A stretch of DNA of 47,711 bases from a virus, in the IMG/VR virus record IMGVR_UViG_3300031885_000028, positions 1-47,711 of that record; one strand, 5' to 3'. Made by a program: the position numbers and the translations under genes. Under the pieces are notes generated by a model. It saw nothing but the letters and a program-made list of their open reading frames with translations, ran no database searches and had not been told where the DNA came from. Shown piece after piece: positions 16,742-37,256 of this stretch; position 1 is the first letter of the stretch, and each line of letters begins with the position of its first letter.

Positions 16742-18241
16742 TCAGAAGAAGGCGTCCATATTCTCCCTTTTTTCGATGTTGTTTAGACGGTCCCGGACTC
16801 CGTTGATCTCGGCCAGGAAGTCTTTATCTTGCACCGTGTCGCGGTCTCGCTCGATCTTCTTCGGAATGATCATGACCCGCGGGACATAAGACAGGCAAAT
16901 GATCAGATCGTCGTGGGCGCAGGCGGGATAATTGAGGACCTCTGAGATCAGGTCTTCCTGGCCCGGGCCAAAGAGGATCCGGCCGGTCTCGAAGAATTGT
17001 TTAAGGCGGTGGACGCGATCTTTCGGATCCTGATTGCGGTGCTCGACGAAAGTGAAGTTAAATTGGGGGGCCAGGTGCTCGACCGTGTCGGCGATCGTGA
17101 TCGAGTATTTTTCCTTCTCGATGTAGGTCTCGTCCGGTTGGAAGGCTTGCTGGAGCGCTTCGGCGTGTTTGAGCATCCGATAAGGCGCCAGCCAAAGGTG
17201 CTCGGAGTAGATGACGTAAATGTAGCCAAGGTGGTCGATGTCCACGATCAAATATCCGGTCGGATCGTTCTTCTTGTTGGCGGTGCCGGCGGGGTCGATC
17301 ATGAGGATCCGGTAGTAGTATTCGGGGAGATAGACCCATTTCCTGATCCATTTCTCGGTCGCAATCCGGTCGGCGTCGTCCAGGACCCGGAGCTCATATT
17401 GCGTAGCGAAGAGACTCTCCCCCTGGTCCGATCGTATTTCTTCGAAGTCTTCCCAGGTGAACATCTCCGGGAAGGTCAGGATCTCCGATCCGTCATCCAG
17501 GCGGAGCTTATAGGGCATGATAAATTTATCGTAGTTCTTGACGTTCTTGATGATGTGGGCGATCAGGTCGGAATGATGGAAGGGCGTCCCAACGTCGATC
17601 TCCATCCCGATTTTCCGCTTTTTATACTTGGTCAAAATCGACTTTTGCAGGCGCCATTTTCGCAGGACGTTTTCTCTCTCTACCTCAGAAAATGCGTTAT
17701 CGTCATTGACCAAATCGTCGTTGATGTAGTTTTTGAAATGCCGGCTGACCTGTCTTGTCTCGAGAGACGAGACCTGGAAGCGAGCGCCCTTGTAATGGAC
17801 CTTCCATTTCGTCCACTTGTCGTACCCCTGGAAAGTCTGGGGAATCTTGAAGAGCCAATGCAGGACTTGGCAACGGAGAAGAGTCTGGCGAAAATCGTCC
17901 ATGAAGCCTTCGGCGTTCTCGCGGGTTGCCGTGTTATAGACGATGCTGATCGATTCCCCCTTAACTAGGGCCCAGCAAAAAGTATAGAGGCAATAGGCCA
18001 AGAGGATCGTCGTCTTGTAGGATCCGCGGAAGATCGATATGAATTTCCTCTGGCTCGGGTTGACGGTGGGATCCAAGTAGCGACACAGGTGGTAATGAAG
18101 GCGGCCAAGGTCGTGGAATTTCTCTTCCCAGGCGCTTTTCAGAAGATGGGTGAAAAACCAGAGACCCGCCGCCCAGGACAGCCATTTCTCGCGCTGGAGA
18201 CCCGGCGGAAGGGAGTCAGACCTGATCAGCCTGGTCTTCAT
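16742..18241 (-). CDS. terL: Terminase large subunit (packaging ATPase and nuclease)
   Basis: This encodes 499 residues. The ATPase half has a Walker-A-like loop FRGSYKTT at residues 71-78 and a Walker-B-like INDD at 173-176. The nuclease half shows DPAG at 316-319 and the C-terminal HDD at 443-445, in the RNase H-like order. It would cut the concatemer and translocate DNA into the prohead through the portal. The Walker A loop has Ser-Tyr between Gly and Lys, slightly off the usual G-K-S/T. The start overlaps the small subunit gene by 26 bases, with GGAG about 10 bases upstream. Confidence 0.85.
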   Translation of the reverse strand: MKTRLIRSDSLPPGLQREKWLSWAAGLWFFTHLLKSAWEEKFHDLGRLHYHLCRYLDPTVNPSQRKFISIFRGSYKTTILLAYCLYTFCWALVKGESISIVYNTATRENAEGFMDDFRQTLLRCQVLHWLFKIPQTFQGYDKWTKWKVHYKGARFQVSSLETRQVSRHFKNYINDDLVNDDNAFSEVERENVLRKWRLQKSILTKYKKRKIGMEIDVGTPFHHSDLIAHIIKNVKNYDKFIMPYKLRLDDGSEILTFPEMFTWEDFEEIRSDQGESLFATQYELRVLDDADRIATEKWIRKWVYLPEYYYRILMIDPAGTANKKNDPTGYLIVDIDHLGYIYVIYSEHLWLAPYRMLKHAEALQQAFQPDETYIEKEKYSITIADTVEHLAPQFNFTFVEHRNQDPKDRVHRLKQFFETGRILFGPGQEDLISEVLNYPACAHDDLIICLSYVPRVMIIPKKIERDRDTVQDKDFLAEINGVRDRLNNIEKRENMDAFF

Positions 18242-20053: not shown

Positions 20054-20583
20054 TTGGCACCCTCCAACCGTTTTGGCTTTAAAGCCTCAAGCATCTTTCT
20101 GTTTTCTTCCAATTCCTTCATCATTTCCCTCTCGCCGACCATCCTGGCGGCTGCGATCTTATAGGCTTCGATGAACCTGGCCCTGTCCCTGGCCTCGTAT
20201 GTCGTTTCCGTCTCCCCAAAGGCTTTCCAGCCTCCAAAGGCGATCCTAACGGCCTCTGCCGCGACGAGGTCTTTCGGCTTTCCCCCGCCCTGAACCGTAT
20301 CAAGGTCCTTACACGCCCTGGGCCAAGCCTCAAGGGCCTCAACCTCAACGTCTTCCTCGAGAAGATCGAAGGCGGCCTGCCGGATCTCGGCGATCGTCGG
20401 CATGGACTGATAACGCCTAGAGAGGATGATCTTGTCCACGGCTCTTTTAAGTTGTCCTTCCGTAAGGTCTTGTAAATAATGAAAATAAACTTCTACTTTC
20501 CCTTTGGACAACCCTCCTTTTTCGAAAGCCGTCCCGAGAACGGCGATAAACCTGGCAAATTTCTCCTCTTTGTCAGACGACAT
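20050..20583 (-). CDS. Helicase-loader-like replication protein, putative
   Basis: This encodes 177 residues. The N-terminal half (residues 6-70) has the pattern 'FARFIAVLGTAFEKGG...VEVYFHYLQDLTEGQL' and ends 'SMPTIAEIRQAAFDL', the layout of G39P/DnaI-type helicase-loader N-domains. The C-terminal half is helical and charged. It overlaps the initiator gene by 11 bases, so the two probably act together: the initiator opens the origin and this protein recruits the host DnaB-type helicase. No AAA+ motor is visible. Confidence 0.65.
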   Translation of the reverse strand: MSSDKEEKFARFIAVLGTAFEKGGLSKGKVEVYFHYLQDLTEGQLKRAVDKIILSRRYQSMPTIAEIRQAAFDLLEEDVEVEALEAWPRACKDLDTVQGGGKPKDLVAAEAVRIAFGGWKAFGETETTYEARDRARFIEAYKIAAARMVGEREMMKELEENRKMLEALKPKRLEGAK

Positions 20584-21535
20584 CTTCTCCCTCCCTTTCT
20601 TTCAACCATTGCCTTACACCGTCCGTAGCGTCCGGTTTTTGGGCTTTTAACCAAAGTTGGTCCCATTTTTCCCTAAGTTTCGACATGGACAGGATGTTGA
20701 CCTTCCAAAATTGATCTGACTGCGAGAATCTTATGATTAGCTCTATGTCCCGCTCTGTCTTCCCGTCGGACTCACGGAGTAGCCTGCATTCGTCGATCCA
20801 CCTCTTCTGCCGATCAGGGGTGAGTTTTTTTATGATTGTGGATTCCGGGTTGTTCTTCTGCATCAGGTCGATTAATAGCTGGGTAAGTCTAATATCAATC
20901 TCCAAGAAAGATTTAAGATTAAGAGAAGAAGTCCCTCTTAAATCTTCCAAACCACCTTTTGCTGAGGCTTTTTTGATAATTTTGCTAAGCGGTTTGATTG
21001 AAATGTTTGCTTCGATTTTGCTACCAATATTATCTATGGATTCAGCTTCATTATCAGGCGTGGGGTTACCGTTGGGTTTTGCTTCAATTTTGCTTCCATT
21101 CTTTGCTAAAGCTTTGCTGTCGATATTTTTGTAGTTTTGCTTGCAAGCAAAACGCTTTTGCTTACGAGCCTCTACCCCAAGCAGGCCCGCCGCGGATCTT
21201 TTCTGGCTCAATTCCCGATCTCCGCACATACGGCGGTTGTAAATCGTCCCGTCCAGGAAGCGAGAGAACACCTTATTGCGTTCGAGTTCGACAAGTAAGG
21301 CGACGACTTCTATGGGGTCAGCCCCCTCAAGCCTCGCAAGTTCTTCGCTATCAATTTTTCGCCCATTTATGGTCAAGGTTCCCTTGGCGGTAGAGCGCGA
21401 CATTATTCCCAGCATGTCGATCCAGAGACCCCGAGCGGCCAGGCTACATGCCCTGACATCGAAAGACGAGAACCAATCATCCCAAAACCAGAGATCCGCC
21501 GGTCTTTGGTCTTCCTTGAGGCTGTACTTGTTCAT
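20573..21535 (-). CDS. Replication initiator (phage replisome-organiser, lambda O/DnaD-like), putative
   Basis: This encodes 320 residues. The N-terminal winged-helix region (about 14-115) has the recognised pattern WFWDDWFSSF...CSLAARGLWIDMLGIM. The centre (about 125-200) is Lys/Ser/Asn-rich with 'SKIEA' twice and encodes TTTTGCT iterons on the opposite strand. The C-terminal domain (about 205-305) is helical (LRESDGKTERDIELIIRFS...WKVNILSMSKLREKWDQLW) like DnaD-type C-domains. GGAAGGA lies nine bases before the start. It would bind iterons in its own gene, as lambda O does, and hand over to the loader gene that overlaps it. Confidence 0.7.
   Translation of the reverse strand: MNKYSLKEDQRPADLWFWDDWFSSFDVRACSLAARGLWIDMLGIMSRSTAKGTLTINGRKIDSEELARLEGADPIEVVALLVELERNKVFSRFLDGTIYNRRMCGDRELSQKRSAAGLLGVEARKQKRFACKQNYKNIDSKALAKNGSKIEAKPNGNPTPDNEAESIDNIGSKIEANISIKPLSKIIKKASAKGGLEDLRGTSSLNLKSFLEIDIRLTQLLIDLMQKNNPESTIIKKLTPDRQKRWIDECRLLRESDGKTERDIELIIRFSQSDQFWKVNILSMSKLREKWDQLWLKAQKPDATDGVRQWLKEREGEDVV
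20957..21162. other. Iteron cluster inside the initiator gene, candidate replication origin
   Basis: TTTTGCT occurs on the plus strand at 20957, 20980, 21016, 21077, 21088, 21135 and 21156, with an inverted copy (AGCAAAA) at 21146 and near matches at 21005, 21101 and 21112. The segment is markedly AT-richer than its neighbours. A further AT-rich stretch (about 20885-20940) lies next to it and could unwind. This arrangement, iterons in the central part of an initiator gene next to an AT-rich element, is that of lambda-type origins. Confidence 0.6.
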
Positions 21536-23857: not shown

Positions 23858-23917
23858 TTACCCGCCCTCAGCCGCGGCAACGACGGCAGCGATCGCGATC
23901 AGGGTCGTTTTGTTCAT
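23858..23917 (-). CDS. Tiny membrane peptide, 19 residues
   Basis: The product MNKTTLIAIAAVVAAAEGG is a positively charged start followed by a hydrophobic run. Its start is coupled to the stop of the previous gene in a TGATG junction, with GGTGG upstream. It is short but fits a small membrane protein or leader peptide. Confidence 0.35.
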   Translation of the reverse strand: MNKTTLIAIAAVVAAAEGG

Positions 23918-24099
23918 CACCACCCCAGCTTCTTCGAGATCTCGGGCGTCATTCCGCCCTTCTCCCGAAGGGACGTTTTGAAATAGTCCCCGACTTCGCC
24001 AACGAAGAATCGGGATCCGGGAATCGCGAACCGCCAGAGGCGGCACATGTCCTCTTGGCTCATTCTGTCGATCAGGTCCTTCGTCTCCTGGTCGATCAT
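23917..24099 (-). CDS. Hypothetical protein
   Basis: This encodes 60 residues from the ATG at 24099, which overlaps the TGA of the radical SAM gene (ATGA); a longer upstream extension in the same frame has no ribosome binding site. The sequence is mixed charged helix (MIDQETKDLIDRMSQEDMCRLWRF). No family. Confidence 0.55.
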   Translation of the reverse strand: MIDQETKDLIDRMSQEDMCRLWRFAIPGSRFFVGEVGDYFKTSLREKGGMTPEISKKLGW

Positions 24100-24791
24100 T
24101 TCCCGACCAGCCTCTCGAGATTCGTCTTTTTGCGGATCTTCACGCCAGCCTCGTTGAGAAGATCGATGAATTTCAAGACCTTCTCGCCTTTCGGTTCCGT
24201 CAGGCCACAGCCCTTCGAATCCGCCCCGATCGTCACGAATTCCGGCAGGATCCCGACGATCCATCCGGCTAATATCTCTGGGTCAAAGTCCATGATCGGC
24301 TCGATCGTCACGAAACGGCGAATTCCATGCCGGCGCAGGCCCATCAGAGCCTCTTTTCGCTCCGCCGTTGAAGGCGCGTCCGAGCAAGAGACGGGGGCGT
24401 TTGTCTCTATTGTCGTCCCGACGATATAGTCCCGGGGGAATTTCATCCAAACCAAAAGTTTCAGAAGGCGTCCTGGATTTTTCGTCTGGAAAACATAGGA
24501 GTTTTCGGGGAATTGATTACAATGGTCTAGGATCCTGCCGATCATGCGGTCAGAGACACCATGGGAGAACATGTCGTTCATATGCTCGATAAAGATTGTC
24601 TTCCCGCTGCCGTACTTTACGTGCAATTCGGCTTCGATCAGCCGGATCGGACCGGTGTATTTCTGAGGCCGGCCCTGGCGGGATCTCCCGACGTAGCAAT
24701 AAGAGCATTTGTAGGGGCATTCCCCGCCCAGGTGAGAATGAACGTGCGTCACCCAATCGTACATGTTTCCGTGAGACATTTTAAGGGGCAT
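24096..24791 (-). CDS. Radical SAM protein of the phage Gp37/Gp68 (DUF5131-like) type
   Basis: This encodes 231 residues. The cluster-binding motif C25-x3-C29-x2-C32 (ECPYKCSYCYVG) is that of radical SAM enzymes. 'TIFIEHMNDMF', 'FQTKNPGRLL' and 'RFVTIEPIMDFDPEILAGWI' match the Gp37/Gp68-like phage family. The substrate and reaction are unknown; DNA or nucleotide modification is a reasonable guess. It is the first gene after a TTGG-type promoter (24809-24837), with AAGGAG immediately upstream of the start. Confidence 0.75.
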   Translation of the reverse strand: MPLKMSHGNMYDWVTHVHSHLGGECPYKCSYCYVGRSRQGRPQKYTGPIRLIEAELHVKYGSGKTIFIEHMNDMFSHGVSDRMIGRILDHCNQFPENSYVFQTKNPGRLLKLLVWMKFPRDYIVGTTIETNAPVSCSDAPSTAERKEALMGLRRHGIRRFVTIEPIMDFDPEILAGWIVGILPEFVTIGADSKGCGLTEPKGEKVLKFIDLLNEAGVKIRKKTNLERLVGK

Positions 24792-24808
24792 TTCGTTCTC
24801 CTTGCCCC

Positions 24809-24837
24809 ATTATTGCACGAGCCGGGGGTTTGTCCAA
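24809..24837 (-). promoter_or_regulatory. TTGG-type promoter for the radical SAM gene
   Basis: On the minus strand TTGGAC (24837-24832), exactly 17 bases, then AATAAT (24814-24809), preceded by TGC (extended -10) and followed by GGGG. The start codon of the radical SAM gene is at 24791, so the transcript leader would be about 11 bases and consist mainly of the AAGGAG site. It is one of five matching sites. Confidence 0.65.
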
Positions 24838-24844
24838 ATGCCCG

Positions 24845-25030
24845 TCAATCCCTGGGGTCAATTTCAGGGCCCGTGCCCTTGATTTTTCGCTTTTCATCCT
24901 CAAAAAACCAGGTCCGCGTGGCTATCCACCCGGCGACAAGAAAGCCGGCCAAAAATCCGAACGCAGCCAGGATGAACGCCTGCCATAGGGCTACATTTGG
25001 CATCCCGAGAATTGTCATTATGTGCTTCAT
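24845..25030 (-). CDS. Small membrane protein
   Basis: This encodes 61 residues. A hydrophobic segment spans about residues 14-36 (LWQAFILAAFGFLAGFLVAGWI). The C-terminus is charged (FEDEKRKIKGTGPEIDPRD). One TM segment, N-out or N-in unknown. It lies between the radical SAM gene and small hypothetical genes. No family. Confidence 0.6.
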   Translation of the reverse strand: MKHIMTILGMPNVALWQAFILAAFGFLAGFLVAGWIATRTWFFEDEKRKIKGTGPEIDPRD

Positions 25031-25042
25031 TTTTCCCTTCCG

Positions 25043-25270
25043 TCAAAACGGGAGATTCGCCGGTTTCCTGGCGCGCTTCCTCTTCTTGGCCTGCGGGTAA
25101 TAGACGAACATCCCAGCCCTGAAAAGCCGGTGCAAGATCTTGGCGCTTAGCTGCATCATGAAAGCGGCCGGAGACGCCTTCCCTCCCCAGATTCCCCTCT
25201 CCGGGCAGATGACGGACTTCTTCTTCCGGGCCAGGTTTTCAAGATGTTCGAACGTAGCCACCTTTCTCAT
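25043..25270 (-). CDS. Hypothetical basic protein
   Basis: This encodes 75 residues, with a basic N-terminus (LENLARKKKSV), a central helix (FMMQLSAKILHRLFRAG) and a basic tail (KKRKRARKP). Its stop lies 13 bases before the start of the next gene. Possibly nucleic-acid binding; unknown. Confidence 0.5.
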   Translation of the reverse strand: MRKVATFEHLENLARKKKSVICPERGIWGGKASPAAFMMQLSAKILHRLFRAGMFVYYPQAKKRKRARKPANLPF

Positions 25271-25273
25271 GAC

Positions 25274-25486
25274 CTATCCTCCATTCCTCATGAATTTATG
25301 GCTACGCGGTTTTCCGGGGCACATGATTTCTCCGTTGTGATACCATTTGTCCCGATCTTTAACGGCCTGGTCGAAGGCTTTCATGCAACCCAGAATAAAA
25401 TTAGCTAAAATATAATCCGGGGTGTTGGAGACATTCTCCTGAGAATATTTGTTGATAATGTGTTCTAATTCTTCGTGAAACGTCAT
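25274..25486 (-). CDS. Small phage protein of a common hypothetical family
   Basis: This encodes 70 residues. The N-terminal pattern 'FHEELEHIINKYSQENVSNTPDYILANFILGCMKAFDQAV' is a frequently seen small phage protein of unknown function. GGAG precedes the start. Confidence 0.6.
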   Translation of the reverse strand: MTFHEELEHIINKYSQENVSNTPDYILANFILGCMKAFDQAVKDRDKWYHNGEIMCPGKPRSHKFMRNGG

Positions 25487-25501
25487 GTTTTTTCTCCTTG
25501 T

Positions 25502-25657
25502 CTAGCGGTCACGTCGAGCCTCGAAGATGGCCTTGAGTAATGGGATAACATCAGAACCCTCCTGTCTTAAATTTCCCGTCCGGCCCCGAGAGGCCATCCA
25601 AAGGACGGGCGCAATCGCGTCTTCGGCGCTCCTGAGCATGCGCCACGCGGGAGCCAT
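25502..25657 (-). CDS. Possible small ORF in the leader of the 25486 gene
   Basis: This encodes 51 residues, starting about 70 bases downstream of the promoter at 25733-25761. AAGGGG lies only two bases before the ATG, too close for a good site. The composition is plausible (DAIAPVLWMASRGRTG, KAIFEARRDR). An overlapping 22-codon frame with a better site (AGGAGGG) also ends in ATGA at the next start. At most one of these is likely translated. Confidence 0.35.
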   Translation of the reverse strand: MAPAWRMLRSAEDAIAPVLWMASRGRTGNLRQEGSDVIPLLKAIFEARRDR

Positions 25658-25838
25658 GGCCCCTTAGTGGAACCGCGTCTGCCGTCTGCGAAGGCCAGAT
25701 CTTATCAGCCCAGGCTTCCCTGTTCGCACTCCACTATTGCCTAACCCCTCCCCTTTTCCAAATCCGGTCGGGGCCGCCGAAAAAAGCCAAATCCTAGTGC
25801 AATGATAAGCCCTGCCCCTGCCCTGCCAACCATTGCAA
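25658..25838. other. Short leader and intergenic region upstream of the left-arm small genes
   Basis: It contains the TTGG-type promoter at 25733-25761 and two CAATG-type words (near 25798 and 25830). No convincing gene is seen. The right part borders the stop of the methyltransferase gene at 25839. Confidence 0.6.
25733..25761 (-). promoter_or_regulatory. TTGG-type promoter for the left-arm small genes
   Basis: On the minus strand TTGGAA (25761-25756), 17 bases, AATAGT (25738-25733), followed by GGAG. The usual TGC before the -10 is GGC here. The first downstream frame starts 76 bases later, so this is the only one of the five sites without an immediately adjacent gene start. Confidence 0.55.
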
Positions 25839-26768
25839 TTAGGGGACCAGGGCCAGCTGTACCCATTTAACCCTACGTTCCGCCATCCGGCAATATTCGG
25901 GATTCAGCTCGATTCCGATAAACTCCCGCCCTAATTTCATGGCGACAAGTCCGGTAGTGCCAGCCCCGAAGAACGGGTCGAGGACAACGCCGCCCTTTGG
26001 GCACCCCGCCTTGATACAGATTTCCGGTATCTCCGGCGGGAACGTGGCGAAGTGGGCTTCCTTGAACGGCTTGGTCGTGACTGTCCAGACGCTGCGTTTG
26101 TTGCGCGTGTTGCCCTCCCAAGGCACGCTACCGGCCACGGCGCCAGCACTCTTTCCGTCAGTATCGACCGGGACGCCGCGCGCGCTTGCTGGCTTGCGTT
26201 CCTTGTTCCCGGATTTTCTTAAGTCACCGCCGCCTCTGTCGTGGCCGTTGCCTCGATCATCCACCTGTCCCGGCGCATATGGCCTGCGAAGATCATCTCC
26301 AGCCGGTTCCTGAATCGCTTCGCTGTCAAAGTAGTACCTCTCCGACTTCGAGAGCAGGAACACGTATTCGTGGCTCTTGGTGCAGCGGTCGCGCACCGAC
26401 TCGGGCATTGGATTGGGCTTCGCCCAAATGATGTCCTGCCGGAGATACCAGCCGTCTGCTTGCAGGGCGAAGGCCACGCGCCAGGGGATGCCAACGAGGT
26501 CTTTCGGCTTGAGTCCTTTGGTTCTCAGCCCATGGTAAGAGTCTCCGAGGTTCAAAAATAAAACCCCGTCCTTCCTCAGCACCCGCCGGACTTCGCGGAA
26601 TACCTCGACCATATTGGCAACGTATTCCTCCGGCGTTTTCTCTAGCCCGAGTTGGCCGGGAACGCCGTAATCTCGCAACCCCCAATACGGCGGCGACGTG
26701 ACGCAACAATGGACCGACTCATCCGGCAGTTTGCGGAGTTCAGCCAGGCAGTCGCCGAGGATGATCAT
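25839..26768 (-). CDS. DNA methyltransferase, beta-class (TSPPYW)
   Basis: This encodes 309 residues from the ATG at 26768, chosen because GGAGGA lies six bases upstream and the promoter ends just before it; an in-frame extension to 27293 runs through the repeat-rich region and is spurious. Catalytic TSPPYW is at residues 24-29 and the SAM-binding DPFFGAGTTG at about 264-273. This motif order (catalytic first) is the beta class, with SPPY typical of N4-cytosine or N6-adenine methylation. It probably protects phage DNA from host restriction. No partner endonuclease is present. Target recognition region about 60-250. Confidence 0.85.
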   Translation of the reverse strand: MIILGDCLAELRKLPDESVHCCVTSPPYWGLRDYGVPGQLGLEKTPEEYVANMVEVFREVRRVLRKDGVLFLNLGDSYHGLRTKGLKPKDLVGIPWRVAFALQADGWYLRQDIIWAKPNPMPESVRDRCTKSHEYVFLLSKSERYYFDSEAIQEPAGDDLRRPYAPGQVDDRGNGHDRGGGDLRKSGNKERKPASARGVPVDTDGKSAGAVAGSVPWEGNTRNKRSVWTVTTKPFKEAHFATFPPEIPEICIKAGCPKGGVVLDPFFGAGTTGLVAMKLGREFIGIELNPEYCRMAERRVKWVQLALVP

Positions 26769-26786
26769 GCAAGTCCTCCATGCCCC

Positions 26787-26815
26787 ACTATTGCATGGCA
26801 ATGCCTCTTTCCCAA
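26787..26815 (-). promoter_or_regulatory. TTGG-type promoter for the methyltransferase gene
   Basis: On the minus strand TTGGGA (26815-26810), 17 bases, TGC-AATAGT (26792-26787), then GGGG. The methyltransferase ATG is at 26768, giving a leader of about 12 bases that starts just before GGAGGA. Confidence 0.65.
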
Positions 26816-26833
26816 ATGCTCCACAAGCCCCAA

Positions 26834-27393
26834 CCATTGCAATAGGATTTATAGCAAAAATACCCCGAAAATAGCGGGGAAATCTAGGACTATGGTATAT
26901 GCGCTGATCGCCCGAATTCCCACATGCCCTTGCCCATTGCAGGGCCGTAACGCAACGGAGGGCAGGGGGGGGGGGGGCTCGCACAATGGCTCCGGGCTCT
27001 GCAATGGCAAGGCCAAGTGCAATGGCTCCAAGGCCCGAAGCATTGCAAGAGCATAGTGCAATGGTGCCAAGCACTAGGTCCATGGCAATGGTGCCCCAGC
27101 TCCAGCTCCAGCCCCAGTCCCAGCCCCAGTCATGGTGCCCGAGGCCCAGAGCGTGACAGGCTGAGCCATTGCAGGCGCAGAGCGGGGACTGGAGCCTAGC
27201 TCCCAGGGGCGGCGCTTCGCTCGTGGCTGTGCTGGCGCAGGCTGGCACAATGGCGCAGGCGAGGTTGGGGCAATGGCCAGAGGCACATAACAAGGCCCTG
27301 CATAGCGTAGCTCTTAAGGCTTAGCTCTTAAGAGTCTTAAGAGCCTTATCTTAGCTCTTAACGCCGCGGGGCCGCGGCCGGCCGGTGCAATGG
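26834..27393. repeat. Dispersed GCAATGG/CCATTGC array
   Basis: GCAATGG is at 27001, 27019, 27058, 27085, 27270 and 27387; CCATTGC at 26834, 26934 and 27166; one-base variants (ACAATGG) near 26983 and 27247, and GCATTGC at 27040. Nine exact words in 560 bp on two strands is far above the roughly 0.07 expected by simple chance. The word shares TGCAAT...GG with the -10 of the promoter family. Function unknown. Confidence 0.7.
27308..27361. repeat. TAGCTCTTAA direct repeats with inverted arms
   Basis: TAGCTCTTAA occurs at 27308-27317, 27322-27331 and 27352-27361. An inverted partial copy (TTAAGAGC) is at 27337-27344, and CTCTTAAGAG (27325-27334) is a perfect palindrome. A GC-rich palindromic stretch follows immediately. 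This could be a protein-binding operator or a second origin-like site. Confidence 0.65.
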
Positions 27394-27402
27394 TTGACCG
27401 AT

Positions 27403-27431
27403 TTGGGTTTTGGCTGAGCTGATGCAATAGT
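27403..27431 (+). promoter_or_regulatory. TTGG-type rightward promoter for the early arm
   Basis: TTGGGT (27403-27408), 17 bases, TGC-AATAGT (27426-27431), then GAG. The first reading frame starts at 27440, nine bases after the -10, so the transcript would be nearly leaderless. Confidence 0.65.
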
Positions 27432-27439
27432 GAGTCGAA

Positions 27440-27628
27440 ATGACAAACGGAAGGCGGCAAGTTCAAGGACGCAGAAACGAGGACAAGAATTCTATCCCCT
27501 GTTCATTTTGTAGTCGATGTGCCAACTATGGTTTCGGCTGCATCGACTACATCACGAAGGAAGATGAGAGAATCGAGAGAGCGTTCTACGGCCAACTCTC
27601 AAGGCCGGATTGCCTTGAGAGGGATTAA
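27440..27628 (+). CDS. Small Cys-rich protein, first gene of the right arm
   Basis: This encodes 62 residues with a compact Cys set (CSFCSRCANYGFGC, about residues 21-34) that could bind one zinc. It has no Shine-Dalgarno sequence and starts within one or two bases of the expected transcription start, so it would need leaderless initiation. It could instead be spurious, with the RadC-like gene the first real one. Confidence 0.5.
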   Translation: MTNGRRQVQGRRNEDKNSIPCSFCSRCANYGFGCIDYITKEDERIERAFYGQLSRPDCLERD

Positions 27629-27632
27629 CGCG

Positions 27633-28124
27633 ATGGAGAACACGATGAGCTTGCCGTTTTCAAAACGGCCGATTAAGATGAAGGCCTTCGAGCGGCCGGA
27701 TTATCCTGACGGGGCGGTCCTGTCAAGCTCACTGGCGGTCTTCGATGCTTTCAAGGGCTATGCCAGGGCGGACCGCGAGTTTTTCTGCGTCTGCTACCTG
27801 GACGCGAAAAACCGGGCGATAGAGGTCATTGAGGCGAGCGAGGGAACGATTAACCAAGCGGCCGTCTATCCCCGCGAGATCATCAAAGGCGCGCTTATCC
27901 TGGGGGCCGTGTCCATCGTGTGCTTTCATAATCATCCGAGCGGGGACCCGGAGCCTAGCCTATGCGACAAGGAGCTCACCAAGGAAATCGCGTTCGCCTG
28001 TAAATTCATGCAGATTCGGTTTTTAGATCATATCGTCTTAGGAAAGGACTGTTTCTATTCATTCGCAGACAAGGGAGTAATGCAGGACTTCGACCTGCAA
28101 TTCCAATCTTTAGCTAGGAGGTGA
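27633..28124 (+). CDS. RadC-like JAB/JAMM-domain protein
   Basis: This encodes 163 residues from the ATG at 27633 (GAGAGGG upstream); a longer in-frame start at 27519 would overlap the first gene. The metal-binding motif HNHPSGDPEPSLCD holds H99, H101, S109 and D112 in the exact HxH-x7-S-x2-D spacing. RadC-family proteins are common in phages and mobile elements; their biochemical role is unsettled. It sits at the head of the recombination region. Confidence 0.8.
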   Translation: MENTMSLPFSKRPIKMKAFERPDYPDGAVLSSSLAVFDAFKGYARADREFFCVCYLDAKNRAIEVIEASEGTINQAAVYPREIIKGALILGAVSIVCFHNHPSGDPEPSLCDKELTKEIAFACKFMQIRFLDHIVLGKDCFYSFADKGVMQDFDLQFQSLARR

Positions 28125-28130
28125 TTTATT

Positions 28131-28349
28131 ATGATTATCCTGGGTAAGATCAAGCGGGGCGTCAAGTGGCTGGTTGTCTCCGAGTACGACGGAGCGGGCC
28201 ATAAGCGGGGCGAGATCGTCAGTCAACATGCCTCTTATGCTGCGGCCAACAAGCGGGCGCGGCAGTCCACGTTTTGGGCCGTGATATCCATCGAGGATGC
28301 TCGGCTCGATGATTTGGAAAAGCGCCGGGCTCATGCAATGGTGGGGTGA
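28131..28349 (+). CDS. Small hypothetical protein
   Basis: This encodes 72 residues. AGGAGGTGATT precedes the start, one of the strongest ribosome binding sites in the arm. Sequence is basic with a possible beta core (GVKWLVVSEYDGAGHKRGEIV). Unknown. Confidence 0.6.
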   Translation: MIILGKIKRGVKWLVVSEYDGAGHKRGEIVSQHASYAAANKRARQSTFWAVISIEDARLDDLEKRRAHAMVG

Positions 28350-28356
28350 GGCAAGC

Positions 28357-28551
28357 ATGGCAAAAAAAACATTTGTGGTCAAGATCAACCTGGACGGCGA
28401 GGCGTTTCATCCCAGGAATTATGTCGAAGTTGCGAGAATCCTCCGGGACCTTGCCATGCGCGTCGAAGGCTACATGGCGGACGCCTTCATCCTTCAGGAC
28501 ATCAACGGAAACTCCGTCGGTGTCGCCAGCTTCAAGGGCGGTGGGCGCTGA
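28357..28551 (+). CDS. Small hypothetical protein
   Basis: This encodes 64 residues from the ATG at 28357 (GTGAGG upstream). A KTFVVKINLDG strand leads a mixed helix. Its stop forms a TGATG overlap with the next gene. Unknown. Confidence 0.55.
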   Translation: MAKKTFVVKINLDGEAFHPRNYVEVARILRDLAMRVEGYMADAFILQDINGNSVGVASFKGGGR

Positions 28552-28856
28552 TGAGCGAAACAAAGCATACGCCGGGACCGTGGAAGCCTTCCACGGATTA
28601 CAGGCTCAGGTCAATCGACATCGTTGCGTGGAACGCGCAAGGGGAATCGATAGCCAAGATAAAGACGGGGATGCCATTGGGAGACGGCGAAGCCATAGCA
28701 AACGCTCGCCTAATCGCCGCTGCGCCTGAACTGCTGGCGGCCTGTCACTTGGCTCATGTCCGCCTAACGGCTGGAAATCTTGCAGAACAGGCTTTCAATA
28801 AGTCGATTGCAGACAGGATTGAATCCGCCATCAGCAAGGCTGAGGGGAACGGCTGA
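28551..28856 (+). CDS. 'HTPGPW' family phage protein
   Basis: This encodes 101 residues. The N-terminal HTPGPW and the later ANARLIAAAPELLAAC are the signature of a very common phage protein of unknown function. Start and previous stop overlap. Confidence 0.75.
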   Translation: MSETKHTPGPWKPSTDYRLRSIDIVAWNAQGESIAKIKTGMPLGDGEAIANARLIAAAPELLAACHLAHVRLTAGNLAEQAFNKSIADRIESAISKAEGNG

Positions 28857-28857
28857 G

Positions 28858-29043
28858 GTGTGCCGCCGTTGCCCTATATGCGATACGACCTGGCCGGAGA
28901 GCATGTTGAACAGCCAGGGGCTATGCCCCTATTGCCGCGGGGAGGAGGACCGGCCGATGGAGGCCCAGCCTGCGCCTACGCCCAAGGTAGAGCCAGGGGC
29001 GAGAGTTATGCAATTAAATTTATTCGAGAAGGAGACAGAATGA
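28858..29043 (+). CDS. Small zinc-ribbon protein, GTG start
   Basis: This encodes 61 residues. The GTG at 28858 lies two bases after the previous stop, with AGGGG upstream. Knuckles CRRCPIC and CPYC are about 20 residues apart. The C-terminus ends in a short Asn/Leu/Phe helix (MQLNLFEKETE). Confidence 0.6.
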   Translation: MCRRCPICDTTWPESMLNSQGLCPYCRGEEDRPMEAQPAPTPKVEPGARVMQLNLFEKETE

Positions 29044-29237
29044 GCGGAGAACGATGCGCATACGCGCTATACACCGAGAACAGGCCGGACATGGGTCCAA
29101 GCGTCGTCGTCAGGCTAAATCTGCGAATGGCCCAGCTTGTGGCGGATGCGCTGGAGATCATCAATCCCGAAGAAGAGATCAACGAGCGGGACGCGAGAGA
29201 GCTCGCCGGGGACATCAGAAAAGCGATGGGAGGTTGA
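29040..29237 (+). CDS. Small hypothetical protein
   Basis: This encodes 65 residues. Its ATG overlaps the previous TGA (ATGA), with GAAGGAG upstream. Mixed helix with an acidic end (INPEEEINERDARELAGDI). Unknown. Confidence 0.55.
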   Translation: MSGERCAYALYTENRPDMGPSVVVRLNLRMAQLVADALEIINPEEEINERDARELAGDIRKAMGG

Positions 29238-29239
29238 CC

Positions 29240-29887
29240 ATGGACAAACGAATCAAAATCCGTTACGAAGGTAAGCGCGGGTGTGGATACCGGAAGAAGG
29301 AAGCGCTCTATATCGTCAATTTCGATGGAGCCATGGCCCCCTGCGGGAAGATGCCCGTGGCCCTGGACGTCTGCCCGGTCTGCGGCGAAGGGATCAAGCC
29401 TGCGCGAGCCGTCTGGACATGGGTTGACGGTGATGTGCTTCTCAAGGAAGCGATTATGAAGACCTGTAGCTTGAAGGTCTGCCCGTCCTCCTGTCCGCTG
29501 TCGGCCAAGGCATTGGTCGGCGGCGAGAAGGTCGGCCAGGTCGGGCTGACCTGGATCGGAGAGAGGCATTATCCCACGCCGGCCGATTTCATGAAAGAGG
29601 CCGCGGCAATGGGAATCTCCAGGCGGATCAAGACCATCCCCAAAGGCTTCGCTCTTGGCAAGACCTGGGCTCTGCTGGCCCACAGGCTGGCGATCCCGGC
29701 CGCGGAGAAGGGCAAGGAGGCCACGGCGGGGATATTCTTCATGTACCGGCCGACCGCCATCGAGTACGTCTGCAAGGGCACCGAGACGAAGGAAGAGATC
29801 GACGCCCTGACCAAGCGGGGCCTGACGCCGGTCATGGTCGAGAATCCGCCGAAGGAAGCGCCGCCCGAGGAAAAGGAGTGGATTTGA
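29240..29887 (+). CDS. Cys-rich hypothetical protein
   Basis: This encodes 215 residues; AGGTTGACC precedes the ATG at 29240. It holds CGYRK, CGKM, CPVCGEG (about 46-51) and a second cluster (CSLKVCPSSCP), enough for two zinc sites. The C-terminal half is Lys/Ala-rich helix, then a Pro/Glu tail. Possibly a nucleic-acid-binding accessory to the recombination genes; unknown. Confidence 0.6.
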   Translation: MDKRIKIRYEGKRGCGYRKKEALYIVNFDGAMAPCGKMPVALDVCPVCGEGIKPARAVWTWVDGDVLLKEAIMKTCSLKVCPSSCPLSAKALVGGEKVGQVGLTWIGERHYPTPADFMKEAAAMGISRRIKTIPKGFALGKTWALLAHRLAIPAAEKGKEATAGIFFMYRPTAIEYVCKGTETKEEIDALTKRGLTPVMVENPPKEAPPEEKEWI

Positions 29888-30075
29888 GCTACTTCATCAT
29901 CCTGGCAATTATGGGGATTGCGCTGGCCCTACAAAAAACCCAGGAGCTTAAGCTACCTGGGGGCTATGAGATAAGCTCACAGCGGAGACAGTTAGTTTAT
30001 AAGTCAAATTGTCCCTATAAGTCAATACCCCAAATAAAAATATTTTATAAAATTGCCTCATCGCTCTTCCCATAG
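29884..30075 (+). CDS. Small membrane protein, start uncertain
   Basis: About 63 residues. GGAG at 29875-29878 is well placed for the TTG at 29884, whose TTGA overlaps the previous stop; GTG at 29878 would be too close. One hydrophobic segment (YFIILAIMGIALAL). A small hairpin (CCCAGG...CCTGGG) lies within it at 29939-29961. Confidence 0.45.
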   Translation: MSYFIILAIMGIALALQKTQELKLPGGYEISSQRRQLVYKSNCPYKSIPQIKIFYKIASSLFP

Positions 30076-30127
30076 GAGACGCGTCTCCCCCAAGAGGACC
30101 AGGCTCGCCAAGCGAAACGGTCATCAT

Positions 30128-30156
30128 TTGGGAAAAACCGACGATCGTGCAATAAT
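30128..30156 (+). promoter_or_regulatory. TTGG-type promoter for the recombination genes
   Basis: TTGGGA (30128-30133), 17 bases, TGC-AATAAT (30151-30156), then GGAG. It drives the 34-residue ORF at 30168 and the RecT-like gene after it. Confidence 0.7.
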
Positions 30157-30167
30157 GGAGAAGAAAG

Positions 30168-30272
30168 ATGCGTAAAGTAAATTGGGATGTTGCGATCAGG
30201 CTAGGCGGCTGGGGCGTCATGCTCCTGGCCGTCGGTTTCTTTTGGGCCTGGATCATAAGTCTAATTTTCTAG
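30168..30272 (+). CDS. 34-residue membrane peptide
   Basis: The product starts MRKVNWDVAIRLGGWGVM and ends in a hydrophobic helix (LLAVGFFWAWIISLIF). It starts 12 bases after the -10, with a purine-rich upstream (GGAGAAGAAAG). It is the first frame of the transcript that also carries the RecT-like gene, eight bases downstream. Too short for most gene callers. Confidence 0.45.
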   Translation: MRKVNWDVAIRLGGWGVMLLAVGFFWAWIISLIF

Positions 30273-30280
30273 GAGGATAA

Positions 30281-31264
30281 ATGGCAGAAGAAAAGACCGC
30301 ACAATTGGTCAAAATGTCGTCCGGGGATGTCGTTGAGCTCTCGCGAAACGTGCCCGGAATGATGGAGCTCGCCAGGGCTCTTTTCAAGTCCGGGATGTTC
30401 CCCGAGATCCAAAACGAGTTCCAAGTCCTGGTCAAGATCGAGTATGGCCGGGAGCTCGGGATTCAGCCGCTCCAGGCGCTCCAGACGATCGACGTCATCA
30501 AGGGGCACCTGGCAATCAGGTCACAGCTTATGCTCGCCCTTTTCCAGCAACGCGGGGGAAGGATCAAGATCACGCAGAAGGACAAACAGGGGAGCATCGT
30601 CGTCTTCTCAATAGGCGACCGCGAGCCCCTTACGGATCAATTCATGTGGGAAGACGTGGTCCGGGCCGGACTCGCCGGGAAGGATACCTACAAAAACTAT
30701 CCGACCGACATGATGTATGCTCGTTGCATATCCCGTGGTATCAAAGCATACGATCCGGCGTCTGTCCTGGGCCTGGTGTCCGTCGAAGAAGCGATCGACC
30801 TGGAGCCCGTCGCGGGGACGGCACCGGCCGCGATCGAAGTCAAGACCTACGCCCTGCCGACCGGTGAGCCCAAGCCCGAGAAGCCGGAGAAACCAAAGAA
30901 GGCCAAAAAGGAAGAGCCCCCGATCGAGCAGACGAAAGCCGAGCCTCCGGCCGCGGCGGGGCCCGAGAAGCCTGCCGAGAAAGCCCAGGCACCCAAGCCT
31001 GAGGACGTCGAGCCCGAGATCGTCAAGCCTATGCTTTCGGCAGATGCCGAGCCCCATCCGATGATCGCCGAACTCCTGGAGAAGATCGCCAAGAAATTCA
31101 ACCGGGCAGACCTCAAGGATAAGCTGATCGCCAAGACCGAAGGCAAGTACCAGGTCAAGATCAAGAATTTCCCCGCAGACCTGACCGAAGATCAAGCATG
31201 GTGGGTCGTCGGGGTCCTAGACAACACCTGGCAGAGAGAAGAGGCGCTCCTGTGCCAACGGTAG
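30281..31264 (+). CDS. recT: RecT-type single-strand annealing protein
   Basis: This encodes 327 residues. Residues about 20-180 are the annealing core: EYGRELGIQPLQALQTI followed by a GHLAIRSQLMLALF segment, and YPTDMMYARCISRGIKAYDP with LGLVSVEEA, all typical of RecT-family proteins. A Lys/Pro/Glu linker (about 190-245) leads to a C-terminal helix region, as in proteins that bind single-stranded DNA partners. AGGAGG precedes the start. It overlaps the nuclease gene by 13 bases, so the two form a recombination pair. Confidence 0.8.
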   Translation: MAEEKTAQLVKMSSGDVVELSRNVPGMMELARALFKSGMFPEIQNEFQVLVKIEYGRELGIQPLQALQTIDVIKGHLAIRSQLMLALFQQRGGRIKITQKDKQGSIVVFSIGDREPLTDQFMWEDVVRAGLAGKDTYKNYPTDMMYARCISRGIKAYDPASVLGLVSVEEAIDLEPVAGTAPAAIEVKTYALPTGEPKPEKPEKPKKAKKEEPPIEQTKAEPPAAAGPEKPAEKAQAPKPEDVEPEIVKPMLSADAEPHPMIAELLEKIAKKFNRADLKDKLIAKTEGKYQVKIKNFPADLTEDQAWWVVGVLDNTWQREEALLCQR

Positions 31265-32298
31265 CTGACAATCTCCAGAAGGCCCTGGACCTTGCGGACG
31301 AAAGGCTTACTCCGCCCAGGCAGATCGACAAGTCGGTCAACCGCGCGTCTTCCGCCGGCTGGCTTTACGATTGCCAGCGGCACCTGGTCTTGATGCGCCT
31401 GGCTCCCGAGAAAGAGATCTTCGGGAAGGATCAGGAGCGCCGCTTCGCCGAAGGTAGAAAGCAAGAAGAGCTCATGCGGACGGATTTCAAGAATGCCGAA
31501 GTCAAGATGATGGAGTTCAAAAAGCCGGGCGACACAAAATCAAAGCTCCCCGAGAAGGCCAGGACTATCACGGAACCTAAGATCAAATTCGAGCCCGACG
31601 ACATTTTCATCCTGGAGAAAGCGCCGATCGTCCCCGTCGATTACAAAAGCTGCTCGTCTGCCATCTTCCGTGAGATCAAGAGATACGAAGTCGGCCCAGA
31701 CCTCAGGAGCTCTAGGCTGACCTGGATTCGGCATTATCCGGTCCAGATGAATATCTATTGCGCCGGCTGGTCGGCCTCGTTTGGGCTCATGCCCTTCAAG
31801 GACAAGGAGAGCGGCGAAAAGAAGATCATCGAATGCCCCTACAATTCCGGGGATTTCGCCTACATCGTCGATGGGTTCAAGGAGATCAACCGGATGGTCG
31901 AGAAAGAGGACGTACCGGCCGTCATCAACAACAATGCGGTTTGCTCGTTCTGCGGATTCCGCGACCATTGCTATCCAGAAGAGAAGCCGAAGGCCGCGGT
32001 ATCGAAGATCCAGGATCATGAGCTCGCCATGAAGGTTCTGTCTTTGCTTGAGCGGCGTCAGGCCATGCTCTCCTCGGGGATCAAGCAGGCGGCGAAGGAG
32101 CTCGAAGAGACCGAGGACGAGATCAAGGGCGAGATCCGGGCCCTGGGCGAAGTCGTCGAGATCGGAGACTACCGCGTGACCTGCCAGAAATCGACTAGGA
32201 CCGAATACGAGATCCCGGACGACGTGAAGAAGCAGTACAAGAAGATCGTCGATTCCTGGAAGCCGATCAAAATAGAATTCTTTGGAGGTCCACTATGA
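31252..32298 (+). CDS. Cas4/RecB-family nuclease with probable Fe-S cluster
   Basis: This encodes 348 residues from a GTG at 31252 (AGAAGAGG upstream). The core motif VDYK holds D130 and K132, and Q165 follows in YPVQMNIYC. Cys41 (WLYDCQRH) and C231, C234, C240 (CSFCGFRDHC) give the four-Cys pattern of Fe-S nucleases of the Cas4/AddB type. It would resect DNA ends to make single strands for the RecT-like protein. Confidence 0.75.
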   Translation: MPTVADNLQKALDLADERLTPPRQIDKSVNRASSAGWLYDCQRHLVLMRLAPEKEIFGKDQERRFAEGRKQEELMRTDFKNAEVKMMEFKKPGDTKSKLPEKARTITEPKIKFEPDDIFILEKAPIVPVDYKSCSSAIFREIKRYEVGPDLRSSRLTWIRHYPVQMNIYCAGWSASFGLMPFKDKESGEKKIIECPYNSGDFAYIVDGFKEINRMVEKEDVPAVINNNAVCSFCGFRDHCYPEEKPKAAVSKIQDHELAMKVLSLLERRQAMLSSGIKQAAKELEETEDEIKGEIRALGEVVEIGDYRVTCQKSTRTEYEIPDDVKKQYKKIVDSWKPIKIEFFGGPL

Positions 32299-32405
32299 TG
32301 CTATTTCTCATGAACAGGCACATGGTATTTTTCAATTGGCGGTTCCCGTTTATCCACATCAGGTTCAGGCACTTGATCCAGAAGGGAAAGCCCCATGGCC
32401 TATGA
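32295..32405 (+). CDS. 36-residue basic/hydrophobic peptide
   Basis: GGAGG lies seven bases before the ATG at 32295, which overlaps the previous stop. The product begins MMLFLMNRHMVFFNWRF and is rich in Phe, Arg and His. It overlaps the next gene by 11 bases. Probably translated; function unknown. Confidence 0.4.
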   Translation: MMLFLMNRHMVFFNWRFPFIHIRFRHLIQKGKPHGL

Positions 32406-32703
32406 ACAGGATGCCGGGATCGATTATTCAAAGCTGATCTGTCCTCTCTCGATGGCGGCCCCCCAGCCCAGCTATTGTCGGACGACCGCCTGCGGCGCCT
32501 GGGTCCAGAAACCAAGCAAAAGGGGCGGCCAGATCCGCGTCTGCGTCATCATAACATTCTTCAATAGGGTCGGCCTTCATATCGGGAATATCGGAGAATA
32601 CTTCAATGACTTAAACTGGGCCAAAAAGAAAAAGGACGGGGACAGGCCCCGAAGGAGAGAGCCAGAAGATGACCAAAAAAGGGACGAGCCGGATTATCTT
32701 TAG
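32395..32703 (+). CDS. Small hypothetical protein
   Basis: This encodes 102 residues. The N-terminal half has three Cys (ICPLSM, YCRTTACGAWV) that may bind metal; the C-terminus is charged (KKKKDGDRPRRREPEDD). GGGA precedes the start. It overlaps the RlpA-like gene by 35 bases. Confidence 0.6.
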   Translation: MAYEQDAGIDYSKLICPLSMAAPQPSYCRTTACGAWVQKPSKRGGQIRVCVIITFFNRVGLHIGNIGEYFNDLNWAKKKKDGDRPRRREPEDDQKRDEPDYL

Positions 32704-33160
32704 CCTTTTTTTCGTCCTCGTCTTTTCTGCGATCGCAGGAGGACAAGATTACATCACGACATCCTATTACGGACCAGGCTTCCATGGCCGGCAGACGGCC
32801 AACAGGGAAGTCTTCGATATGTATAGCCTCACCTGTGCCAGCAGGACGCTGGCCTTCGACACCTGGATCGAGATCCAATGCGACAAGACGATGCGATCGA
32901 TCATTGCGCGCTGTAACGATCGCGGCCCTTTTTGGCCCGGGCGGGATCTCGACGTCAGCTACGCGGTTGCTTACCACCTGGGAATTCTTGAGATTGGCGT
33001 CGCGGATGTCAGGATCAGGGAGATCAAATTCTCGAAAGGAGCTCTCAAATGCCTCGAACGCCTGATGGGAAATGGGTCGATAGAAACGGCCGACAGTTCA
33101 CGATGCACGATTGCGTTCGTGCTCTTCATGCAGGGATTACTCGGCTCACCTGGGAAGTGA
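32669..33160 (+). CDS. RlpA-like double-psi beta-barrel protein with signal peptide
   Basis: This encodes 163 residues. Residues 1-25 form a signal peptide (basic start, IIFSLFFVLVFSAIAGG). The DPBB core has SYYGPGFHGRQTANREVF (about 32-49) and CNDRGPF (82-88), the two hallmarks of RlpA and related lytic transglycosylases, with E47 and D84 in the expected places. It would act on peptidoglycan in the periplasm. Its 3' end overlaps the next gene by 112 bases, and the last 45 residues look poorly conserved. Confidence 0.75.
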   Translation: MTKKGTSRIIFSLFFVLVFSAIAGGQDYITTSYYGPGFHGRQTANREVFDMYSLTCASRTLAFDTWIEIQCDKTMRSIIARCNDRGPFWPGRDLDVSYAVAYHLGILEIGVADVRIREIKFSKGALKCLERLMGNGSIETADSSRCTIAFVLFMQGLLGSPGK

Positions 33161-33327
33161 ATTTCGGCGAGAAGACAAAAGACGATCCCCGCAAGAAGGC
33201 CAACTACCTTCGCGACATCGAGATCCTGGAAGTCATCCAGGACAGCTTCAAATCTTCCGCCAAGAAATTCATCGAGGGGGAGAAGAAGCAATCCGTCAAG
33301 TTGACGATTCCAGGGAACGGTGGATAA
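33049..33327 (+). CDS. Small hypothetical protein
   Basis: This encodes 92 residues. GGAG lies seven bases before the ATG, which falls inside the RlpA-like gene. Mixed helix (MHDCVRALHAGITRLTW..., IEILEVIQDSFKSSAKKF). The strong ribosome binding site supports it despite the overlap. Confidence 0.6.
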   Translation: MPRTPDGKWVDRNGRQFTMHDCVRALHAGITRLTWEVNFGEKTKDDPRKKANYLRDIEILEVIQDSFKSSAKKFIEGEKKQSVKLTIPGNGG

Positions 33328-36839: not shown

Positions 36840-36906
36840 GCAATCAATCATCCTGGCCTTCGCGGTCCTGGCCGCGCTGACCATCGGGATAAGGAAAGAA
36901 GTGTGA
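36823..36906 (+). CDS. 27-residue membrane peptide
   Basis: MKLNNKQSIILAFAVLAALTIGIRKEV has a single hydrophobic segment. GGGGG precedes its ATG, inside the end of the methyltransferase gene. Likely translated; function unknown. Confidence 0.4.
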   Translation: MKLNNKQSIILAFAVLAALTIGIRKEV

Positions 36907-37256
36907 ACAAAAAAAGATCTTTTATCCGAAAGGCTTTGGTAAATCTCGCGGGCTGGTCGGGTCGGCGCCAGAACAGAAACTTCAAATGGCTACGGGACAA
37001 GGCCATTGCGTTTGACCTTCTGATGGGAATGACGGAAGAGAGCCTCACCCGGATCTACAAGGTCTCGATCGACACGGTCAGGCGCGCTAAGCGAAGGGCT
37101 CCCAAGAGCAACTACATTCGCGTCCAGCAATATCTCACGCAGGCTACTTTGAAAGCAGAAAAATGGCGCCAGCCACAGCTAAGCCTGCCAGACCCAGCTT
37201 CCCTACCGTTGCCTGGAAGCGAAGCAGACCATTCTCCTTCTGGAGAGCCTTTATAA
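36903..37256 (+). CDS. HTH DNA-binding protein, candidate regulator
   Basis: This encodes 117 residues from a GTG at 36903. A helix-turn-helix with spacing TEESLTRIYKVSIDTVRRAKRR lies at residues 44-65; the rest is basic. The C-terminus is Pro/Ser-rich and overlaps the opposing spanin gene by 113 bases. It is the last gene of the right arm and could switch expression toward the late genes. Confidence 0.6.
   Translation: MNKKRSFIRKALVNLAGWSGRRQNRNFKWLRDKAIAFDLLMGMTEESLTRIYKVSIDTVRRAKRRAPKSNYIRVQQYLTQATLKAEKWRQPQLSLPDPASLPLPGSEADHSPSGEPL

Follow-up and report, generated by a model that had tools for sequence, protein, structure and literature searches.

The stretch of DNA analysed here at full length, called the window below, is IMG/VR virus record IMGVR_UViG_3300031885_000028 (47,711 nucleotides), an uncultured bacterial-virus contig in which six short promoter-like sites of closely similar sequence face outward from one divergent intergenic region of 587 bases (26816-27402). 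Most likely, these sites are a real, repeated family of phage-specific early promoters, and some relatives carry parallel families, in which a similar layout is written in other characteristic bases (hereafter, brands). A reading that we hold to be somewhat better than even is that the six are immediate-early promoters of the sigma70 type, read by the host, with brand bases that would be read by a phage factor and with gene cassettes that would be swapped behind them.

Sequence and distribution of the promoter-like sites

An initial annotation had described five of these sites as TTGGRN, exactly 17 bases and AATART, confined to the early region. This pattern matches the window exactly five times, at the same five places and with no exact match in the structural half; 100 dinucleotide shuffles gave a mean of 0.04 matches and a maximum of 1, and spacings of 10-16 and 18-25 bases gave 0 matches in the window. 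The count of five did not stand, since a sixth site at 28314-28342 (+), which differs from the pattern by one -10 base (AATGGT) and has TGC before that block and GGGG after it, had been overlooked.

Facing left from the divergent region are site 3 (26787-26815, minus strand, TTGGGA-17-AATAGT), upstream of a DNA methylase gene with its ATG at 26768, site 2 (25733-25761, minus strand, TTGGAA-17-AATAGT), with small open reading frames (ORFs) downstream, and site 1 (24809-24837, minus strand, TTGGAC-17-AATAAT), upstream of a DUF5131 gene at 24096-24791. Facing right are site 4 (27403-27431, plus strand, TTGGGT-17-AATAGT), before the first rightward gene (ATG 27440), site 6 (28314-28342, TTGGAA-17-AATGGT), before a gene with its ATG at 28357, and site 5 (30128-30156, plus strand, TTGGGA-17-AATAAT), before a small ORF (ATG 30168) that is followed by a RecT-like gene at 30281. 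The gene starts behind sites 1, 3, 4, 6 and 5 lie 18, 19, 9, 15 and 12 bases past the -10 block, respectively; closeness to a gene start (within 20 bases), correctly annotated for four of the original five sites, is thus found at five of six. The TGC before the -10 block rises likewise from 4/5 to 5/6, and the GG-rich bases after it, ascribed to every site, are present at five of six, the site at 27403 having GAG there.

The motif is longer than first described, and reads ATTTGGRAAA-N11-TGCAATARTGGGG. AT precedes TTGG in 6/6 sites, giving a shared ATTTGG that is mostly followed by RAAA, and the flanks of the downstream block are mostly TGC and TGG, as in TGCAATARTGG. The six sites have different spacers and thus do not stem from a single recent duplication. 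Scored with a weight matrix derived from the six, they reached 33.7-43.4, as against 15.0 for the next-best site of the window; this weak seventh match, ATTTGAG...GGCAATTATGGGG at 29884-29912 (+), lies inside an ORF.

Because the annotated pattern had been fitted after the fact, unbiased counts of spaced word pairs (dyads) were run. Pairs of 5+5 bases were not exceptional, as 97/100 shuffles reached 6 copies and 25/100 reached the window maximum of 7. With longer words (150 shuffles in total, Markov orders 1, 3 and 5), ATTTGG-17-GCAAT was the top non-palindromic 6+5 dyad, with 6 copies (9/150 shuffles reached 6), and among 6+6 words the motif held the top count, with 5 copies in two registers (2/150 reached 5). 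Dyad counts alone are only moderately strong, and the case is carried by position, by a word array in the divergent region and by the relatives.

The divergent region, the sister phage and distant relatives

The divergent region holds an array of nine GCAATGG words, seven of them TGCAATGG, compared with 15 GCAATGG in the other 47 kb; the seven make up most of the 10 TGCAATGG copies in the window. In 1000 shuffles, GCAATGG had a mean of 0.34 and a maximum of 3 copies, and no 7-mer rose above 7. In the sister phage G001 (IMGVR_UViG_3300032053_000133, 47,034 bases; RecT 98% identical to that of the window), the 11 CAATGG words of the array are identical at 66/66 bases, against a background of 391/500, and only 3/20000 random sets were equal to this. 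The TGCAATGG array has its core in common with the -10 side of the promoters (TGCAATARTGG or TGCAATGGTGG). Similar pairings were found in distant relatives: the divergent region of G006 has AGTTAACT five times (promoter GTTGACTT), that of L099 has ATAGTA six times (promoter GATAGTA), and positions 1-9100 of L100 hold seven ATAGTA, six of which lie between the two promoters that face outward, the seventh being part of the leftward one. When promoter words were counted in the divergent regions with up to one mismatch, 0, 6 and 8 of 300 shuffles were as high for the window, G006 and L099, respectively; with exact words, 3, 6 and 44 of 300 were as high for the window, L099 and G002. The simplest reading of the array is that its words would be sites of a phage-specific binding protein; origin iterons are a further candidate.

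The same region has other repeats. Three TAGCTCTTAA direct repeats and palindromes lie just upstream of site 4 (27303-27364) and are partly lost in G001; a CCCC-loop-GGGG hairpin at 26863-26879 keeps its stem in G001 with a changed loop; and a run of 13 G (26965-26977) and tandem CCAGC/CCAGTC units (27098-27133) differ in length between the two phages.

G001 carries all six sites, one of them (site 1) with a mismatch, and no further site at up to one mismatch. The sites of the two phages differ at 7/216 bases, all of them outside TTGG, GCAAT, the T at -7 and the G that follows it. What lies behind them is less constant: the sequence behind at least sites 2 and 3 differs between the phages, the G001 copy of site 3 preceding a different gene, and the leader of window site 4 is without 14 bases, reading AAGGAAACAAATGC, that lengthen the G001 leader. 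Of nine interior edges of homology blocks between the phages in 23868-33323, four (24839, 25731, 26765 and 28300) lie within 25 bases of a site, a closeness matched by 69/100000 random draws; the edges were listed by hand, with 28299/28300 taken as one edge and two small secondary matches omitted. Elsewhere in G001, at 5484-6094, the 12-base word GAGGAAACATGA or its complement occurs in four copies about 190-225 bases apart; depending on the strand, the word may be a recurrent ribosome-binding site with its ATG.

Relatives were found by terminase search at 36-52% identity, with a few at 22-26%; some are known by a locus name as well (L013 is G001, L024 is G002, L030 is G006, L029 is G005 and L110 is G009). 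Three further families of the same layout were identified in distant relatives with terminases 48-52% identical, duplicates having been removed from the site lists. G002 has TTGAC-N15-TCTTAT at 9 sites, 4 leftward and 5 rightward, followed by AG in 7; G006 has GTTGACTT-N12-TTTGT at 6 sites, one cut by the contig end; and GGTTGAC-N15-CGTGATRGT occurs at 7 sites in three contigs, namely L099 (4), L100 (2) and L108 (1), the last two being near-copies of each other. Counting from the first T as 0, the window, G002 and L099 families all read AT at positions 24-25, with A predominating at position 26; by alignment, these positions correspond to the middle of a putative sigma70 -10 element spaced by 17 bases. 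The base at position 23 (-12) depends on the family (A, T or G), and the G006 family gave no clean alignment with a -10 hexamer. A 17-base word, GGGGTATGGGAATAGCT, is identical at L024 933-949 and L030 3778-3794, in the divergent regions of distant phages; its best match in the window has 4 mismatches.

Across 17 loci, a TTG-anchored test judged a gene-start family to be present only in the window and in the three relatives' families, L024 being equalled by 1/6 shuffles; L103 also beat its shuffles, via an A-rich low-complexity group. At least four sites, at least three of them with a Shine-Dalgarno sequence and start codon, were found in the window, L013, L024 and L030 and in 0/25 other viral loci, most of which are shorter than the test loci; 20 of these controls came from chance motif matches (four being copies of one locus) and 5 were remote terminase relatives (22-26%). 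Four GTGACA-N14-GCGGTT sites around the divergent region of G005 were indistinguishable from chance and were rejected as a family, no promoter family was found in G009, and the matrix of the window sites scored at most 9.8 in 7 distant loci. A search of 84,980 genomes with the motif pattern gave 41 loci with one match each, a few pairs of which looked orthologous by eye, and no second site near any of the 41 within the stretch examined. Among viral contigs, the pattern was found in 15 stretches, five being copies of one locus, and clustered only in that of G001; a variant pattern was found in 9, one of them from G001 and 7 others serving among the 25 controls.

One promoter appears to have been caught as a joint. 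The core of L100 site 6048 (+) has 26/30 bases as in the first rightward promoter of L099 and 18/30 as in L099 site 6239, and the sequence upstream is 68% identical over 436 columns, with gaps, to the side of that first rightward promoter. From the -10 on, L100 follows L099 site 6239, at 57/80 downstream bases vs 21/80. The L100 promoter is a hybrid of the upstream side of L099 site 5088 and the downstream side of L099 site 6239, and the two BLAST blocks overlap in 6068-6076, which is the -10 itself. Such a hybrid is what recombination between two promoter copies, with loss of the intervening genes, would be expected to leave, and the early promoters may be standard sockets behind which early genes get swapped.

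Candidate readers of the probable promoters

In the sigma70-type reading, each site would start transcription on one plan: a -35-like TTGGR, exactly 17 bases and a -10 AATART, usually with TGn before it and G-rich sequence after it. The three leftward and three rightward promoters would each drive a small early cassette, with a leader that is mostly very short or absent. The reader would most likely be host RNA polymerase with a sigma70-class factor, and fixed bases that sigma70 does not need (ATTTGGRAAA, TGCAAT and GG) would most likely be read also by a phage-specific DNA-binding protein, which would find extra binding sites in the TGCAATGG array that separates sites 3 and 4. As near-identical sockets, the promoters would allow recombination to swap the cassettes.

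Base counts per promoter position, taken over 12 sites (six from the window and six from G001), fit this plan in part. The spacing is 17 in 6/6 and 6/6 sites, within the sigma70 range of 16-18, TTG is kept in 12/12, and A(-11) and T(-7) are present in 12/12, both bases being part of the picking pattern. The annotated departure of the -35 from TTGACA is real: -32 is G, not A, in 12/12 (TTGG was part of the pattern that selected the G001 sites), and -31 is C in 1/12 and G or A in 11/12. Recognition by a modified or alternative holoenzyme, which the annotation had drawn from this departure, is unproven; it is not implied by TTGG in place of TTGACA, because A(-11), T(-7), TGn in 5/6 and the 17-base spacing are ordinary sigma70 features and because the families of three relatives have plain TTGAC. 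The promoter family of the divergent early region is itself well supported by its exact spacing, strand, start-codon position, sister phage and parallel families. The T7 promoter consensus (a contiguous 23-base element) gave 0 matches at up to 3 mismatches, and Pfam scans of the given proteins returned no single-subunit polymerase, the PF00940 search having lacked a positive control.

Several results weigh against the sigma70-type reading. At the sites themselves, -32/-31 is not AC in the window and G001 promoters, -12 is A in 12/12 rather than the sigma70 T, and a sigma70 scan of the window recovered only site 5, plus site 1 in a shifted 16-base register, with a total of 14 that is 1.7 standard deviations above shuffles. 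No gene starts within 20 bases of site 2, where there is only an ORF of 51 amino acids 75 bases on, and RNAs from sites 4 and 5 would be without a Shine-Dalgarno sequence if +1 lies 7 bases past the -10. The 7/216 differences from G001 are too little divergence for the sites alone to show constraint, and the motif was not the top dyad in G001, where a hairpin-like dyad reached 7 and others tied at 6 (in the counts for G001, G002 and G005, overlapping stretches, at most a few hundred bases long, were counted twice). In the relatives, 13/17 loci of the TTG-anchored test were without a gene-start family, many of them fragments and two of them (L100 and L108) later shown to carry the brand of L099; L099 itself, with 5 sites and 1 start, falls outside the rule on Shine-Dalgarno sequences and starts. 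Promoter words with up to one mismatch were equalled in 180/300 shuffles of the G002 divergent region, and exact words in 298/300 for G006, so that the G006 enrichment depends on allowing a mismatch. The analysis identified no regulator protein. Among the PHROGs matches listed for early ORFs (25 of 29), none was named as helix-turn-helix (HTH), and the 16 families that Pfam returned at E 0.01 for 90 of 106 early ORFs in three relatives did not include an HTH.

The wider gene content was called by PHROG and Pfam matches, as were the DUF5131 and DNA methylase genes behind the leftward sites. The terminase (16742-18241), portal (14329-16389), major head protein (11842-13125) and O-like replication protein (20573-21535) are on the minus strand, and RadC, RecT-like, Cas4-like exonuclease and RuvC-like genes lie to the right; a GntR-like match at 36903-37256 (E 0.0055) is below the cut-off. 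In the search for a host, which identified none, a terminase profile found no prokaryotic relative, the phage collection contained no terminase match, RecT, DUF5131 and capsid matches in that collection were all below 60% identity, and RadC matches in plasmids, also below 60%, were spread over many genera.

The virion block includes a giant protein of 1943 amino acids (38622-44453, minus strand), residues ~1075-1245 of which (40719-41231) resemble the sigma70 family. The initial annotation had asked whether a sigma-like virion module is needed; such a segment is present, more clearly in two relatives and weakly in the window. In genome searches, Sigma70_r4 was over the cut-off for the giants of G002 (E 1.8e-7) and G005 (2.5e-7) and below it for the window (7.6e-4) and G001 (7.5e-4); in the Pfam library scan it fell short of the cut-off in both G002 and G005 and did not appear in the window, and Sigma70_ECF was over the cut-off in the G005 giant. 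NCBIfam sigma70-ECF matches (G002 1.1e-9, G005 6.1e-9, window 0.0053, all below the curated cut-off) span late region 2 to region 4, starting at positions 40 (G002), 41 (window) and 29 (G005) of the 165-position profile; no match to sigma region 2 was obtained in the window. The module is the sole part clearly common to the window and G002 giants (27%, 244 columns, E 1.3e-10). A profile of four modules matched WhiG best among solved structures (2.8e-4), with KorA-like proteins and RpoS next. An AF2 model of the segment was of low confidence (pLDDT 55.6), with a best Foldseek E of 0.26 and a best VIA Z of 7.1 (root-mean-square deviation 5.3, 54 aligned); its top fold matches were mainly chains of polymerase initiation complexes, which we take to be sigma. 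The fold alignments are colinear over model residues ~30-198, with a deviation above 10 A once both halves are included, and model and fold matches are weak and thus supporting only.

Possible, although doubtful, is an explanation in which this module, injected with the giant, would steer the host core polymerase to the promoters as a virion-carried sigma-like factor. The matches in G002 and G005 and the polymerase-complex folds speak for it, as does the match of both these giants to a 'virion structural protein' family. Set against it, the sigma70-ECF scores stay under the curated cut-off, the window module is weak and poorly modelled, and BLAST showed no significant similarity between the modules of the window and G005 (E 0.092). 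The window giant is also without a virion-family match, although it has the same gene order as its relatives, before a transglycosylase gene, and the plain TTGAC of three families would be sufficient for host sigma. More speculatively, the module might have its own -35 code, with a matching early-promoter brand in each lineage. The aligned segments are TGERIRQI in the window and TRQRAEQI in G002, next to TRERIRQI, which we take as the sigma70 counterpart and used to place R584. In sigma70, R584 contacts -31, R584A prefers A:T there, and E585 contacts -33, according to a review (PMC2613000). The window module has Gly at the R584 place (alignment by eye) beside promoters with G or A at -31 in 11/12, and G002 keeps Arg beside C(-31) in 9/9; loss of the C(-31)-reading arginine would explain why window promoters have TTGGR, not TTGAC. 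This correspondence involves two phages and was spotted after the fact; moreover, the 585 and 588 places in G002 are occupied by Gln and Glu, and still its promoters keep G(-33) in 9/9, which a simple code does not predict. Should the module prove to read these promoters, it would count as a delivered specificity factor that stands between the injected Alt of T4 and the virion polymerase of N4.

Related frames were seen in other phages. G009 has a large frame without a sigma match and a separate frame of 193 amino acids with one, and small early-region frames with a sigma region-4-like HTH occur at L110 4485-5063 (G009), where it seems to be joined to an XRE-like HTH (by eye), and at L029 3383-3688 (G005). 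Residues ~385-540 of the window giant include YRG...GAGIYWT, presumably an ADP-ribosyltransferase motif; in a low-confidence single-sequence model of this stretch (pLDDT 50.6), the best fold match was the ADP-ribosylating toxin ParT (E 0.079).

Other explanations and known systems

It is unlikely that the sites are operators or replication elements, in which case the array would be the principal binding region or origin, and the copies at gene starts outliers. TGCAAT-RR-TGG is common to array and sites, the array is conserved, and a replication initiator O-like gene is present; however, the sites have two blocks at exactly 17 bases, in the correct strand and mostly before start codons, relatives have TTGAC, and the array words are without the upstream block (by eye). 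Among known operators, those and the stoperators of Cluster A mycobacteriophages are, as described in PMC9283540, copies of an asymmetric word that recurs in promoters and between genes. The window shares the repetition of an asymmetric word, but its array words are bunched in a single divergent region, and the analysis identified no repressor.

Very improbably, the sites would be start-associated elements of translation or RNA, like the start-associated sequences (SAS) and extended SAS (ESAS) of Cluster K mycobacteriophages, which are described in PMC3203893 as short repeats of the non-structural half, at start codons of varied gene families. The start-codon position, the non-structural location and the occurrence before different genes would agree, but site 2 is away from a start, conservation extends to the upstream block, which lies well ahead of the start codon, and the consensus GGGATAGGAGCCC gave 0 matches at up to 2 mismatches. 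The window sites are unlike SAS/ESAS in sequence, in having two blocks at a fixed 17-base spacing and no 17-bp inverted repeats that could be seen, and in occurring on both strands, pointing away from a single region. That the matches arose by chance in a GC-rich phage is scarcely credible: 5+5 dyads are as frequent in shuffles and scans outside G001 gave scattered single matches, but the longer-word dyads, the matrix gap (33.7 vs 15.0), the conserved array and the parallel families speak against them.

A literature search, confined to open-licence PMC papers, gave no description of the promoter family of the window. Polyvalent proteins are injected multidomain phage proteins (described in PMC5512222, the main text of which has 0 matches to 'sigma'), and the giant, a candidate for injection, resembles them in lying in the virion block and in its possible ADP-ribosyltransferase fold. 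T4 early promoters, which are read by host sigma70, are, according to PMC2988021, many per phage, have a consensus beyond the host elements and are accompanied by the injected, polymerase-modifying Alt. The window sites are like them in number, in a shared extra consensus and in the -35/TGn/-10 plan; T4 sites combine a good sigma70 match with UP elements, whereas the window sites depart at -12 and -32/-31 and the brand varies among relatives. Early-region mosaicism of phages is known, but its joints are rarely visible, and here several joints lie at repeated promoters; together, the brands of some relatives and the hybrid promoter suggest a testable model in which early genes would be captured already switched on.

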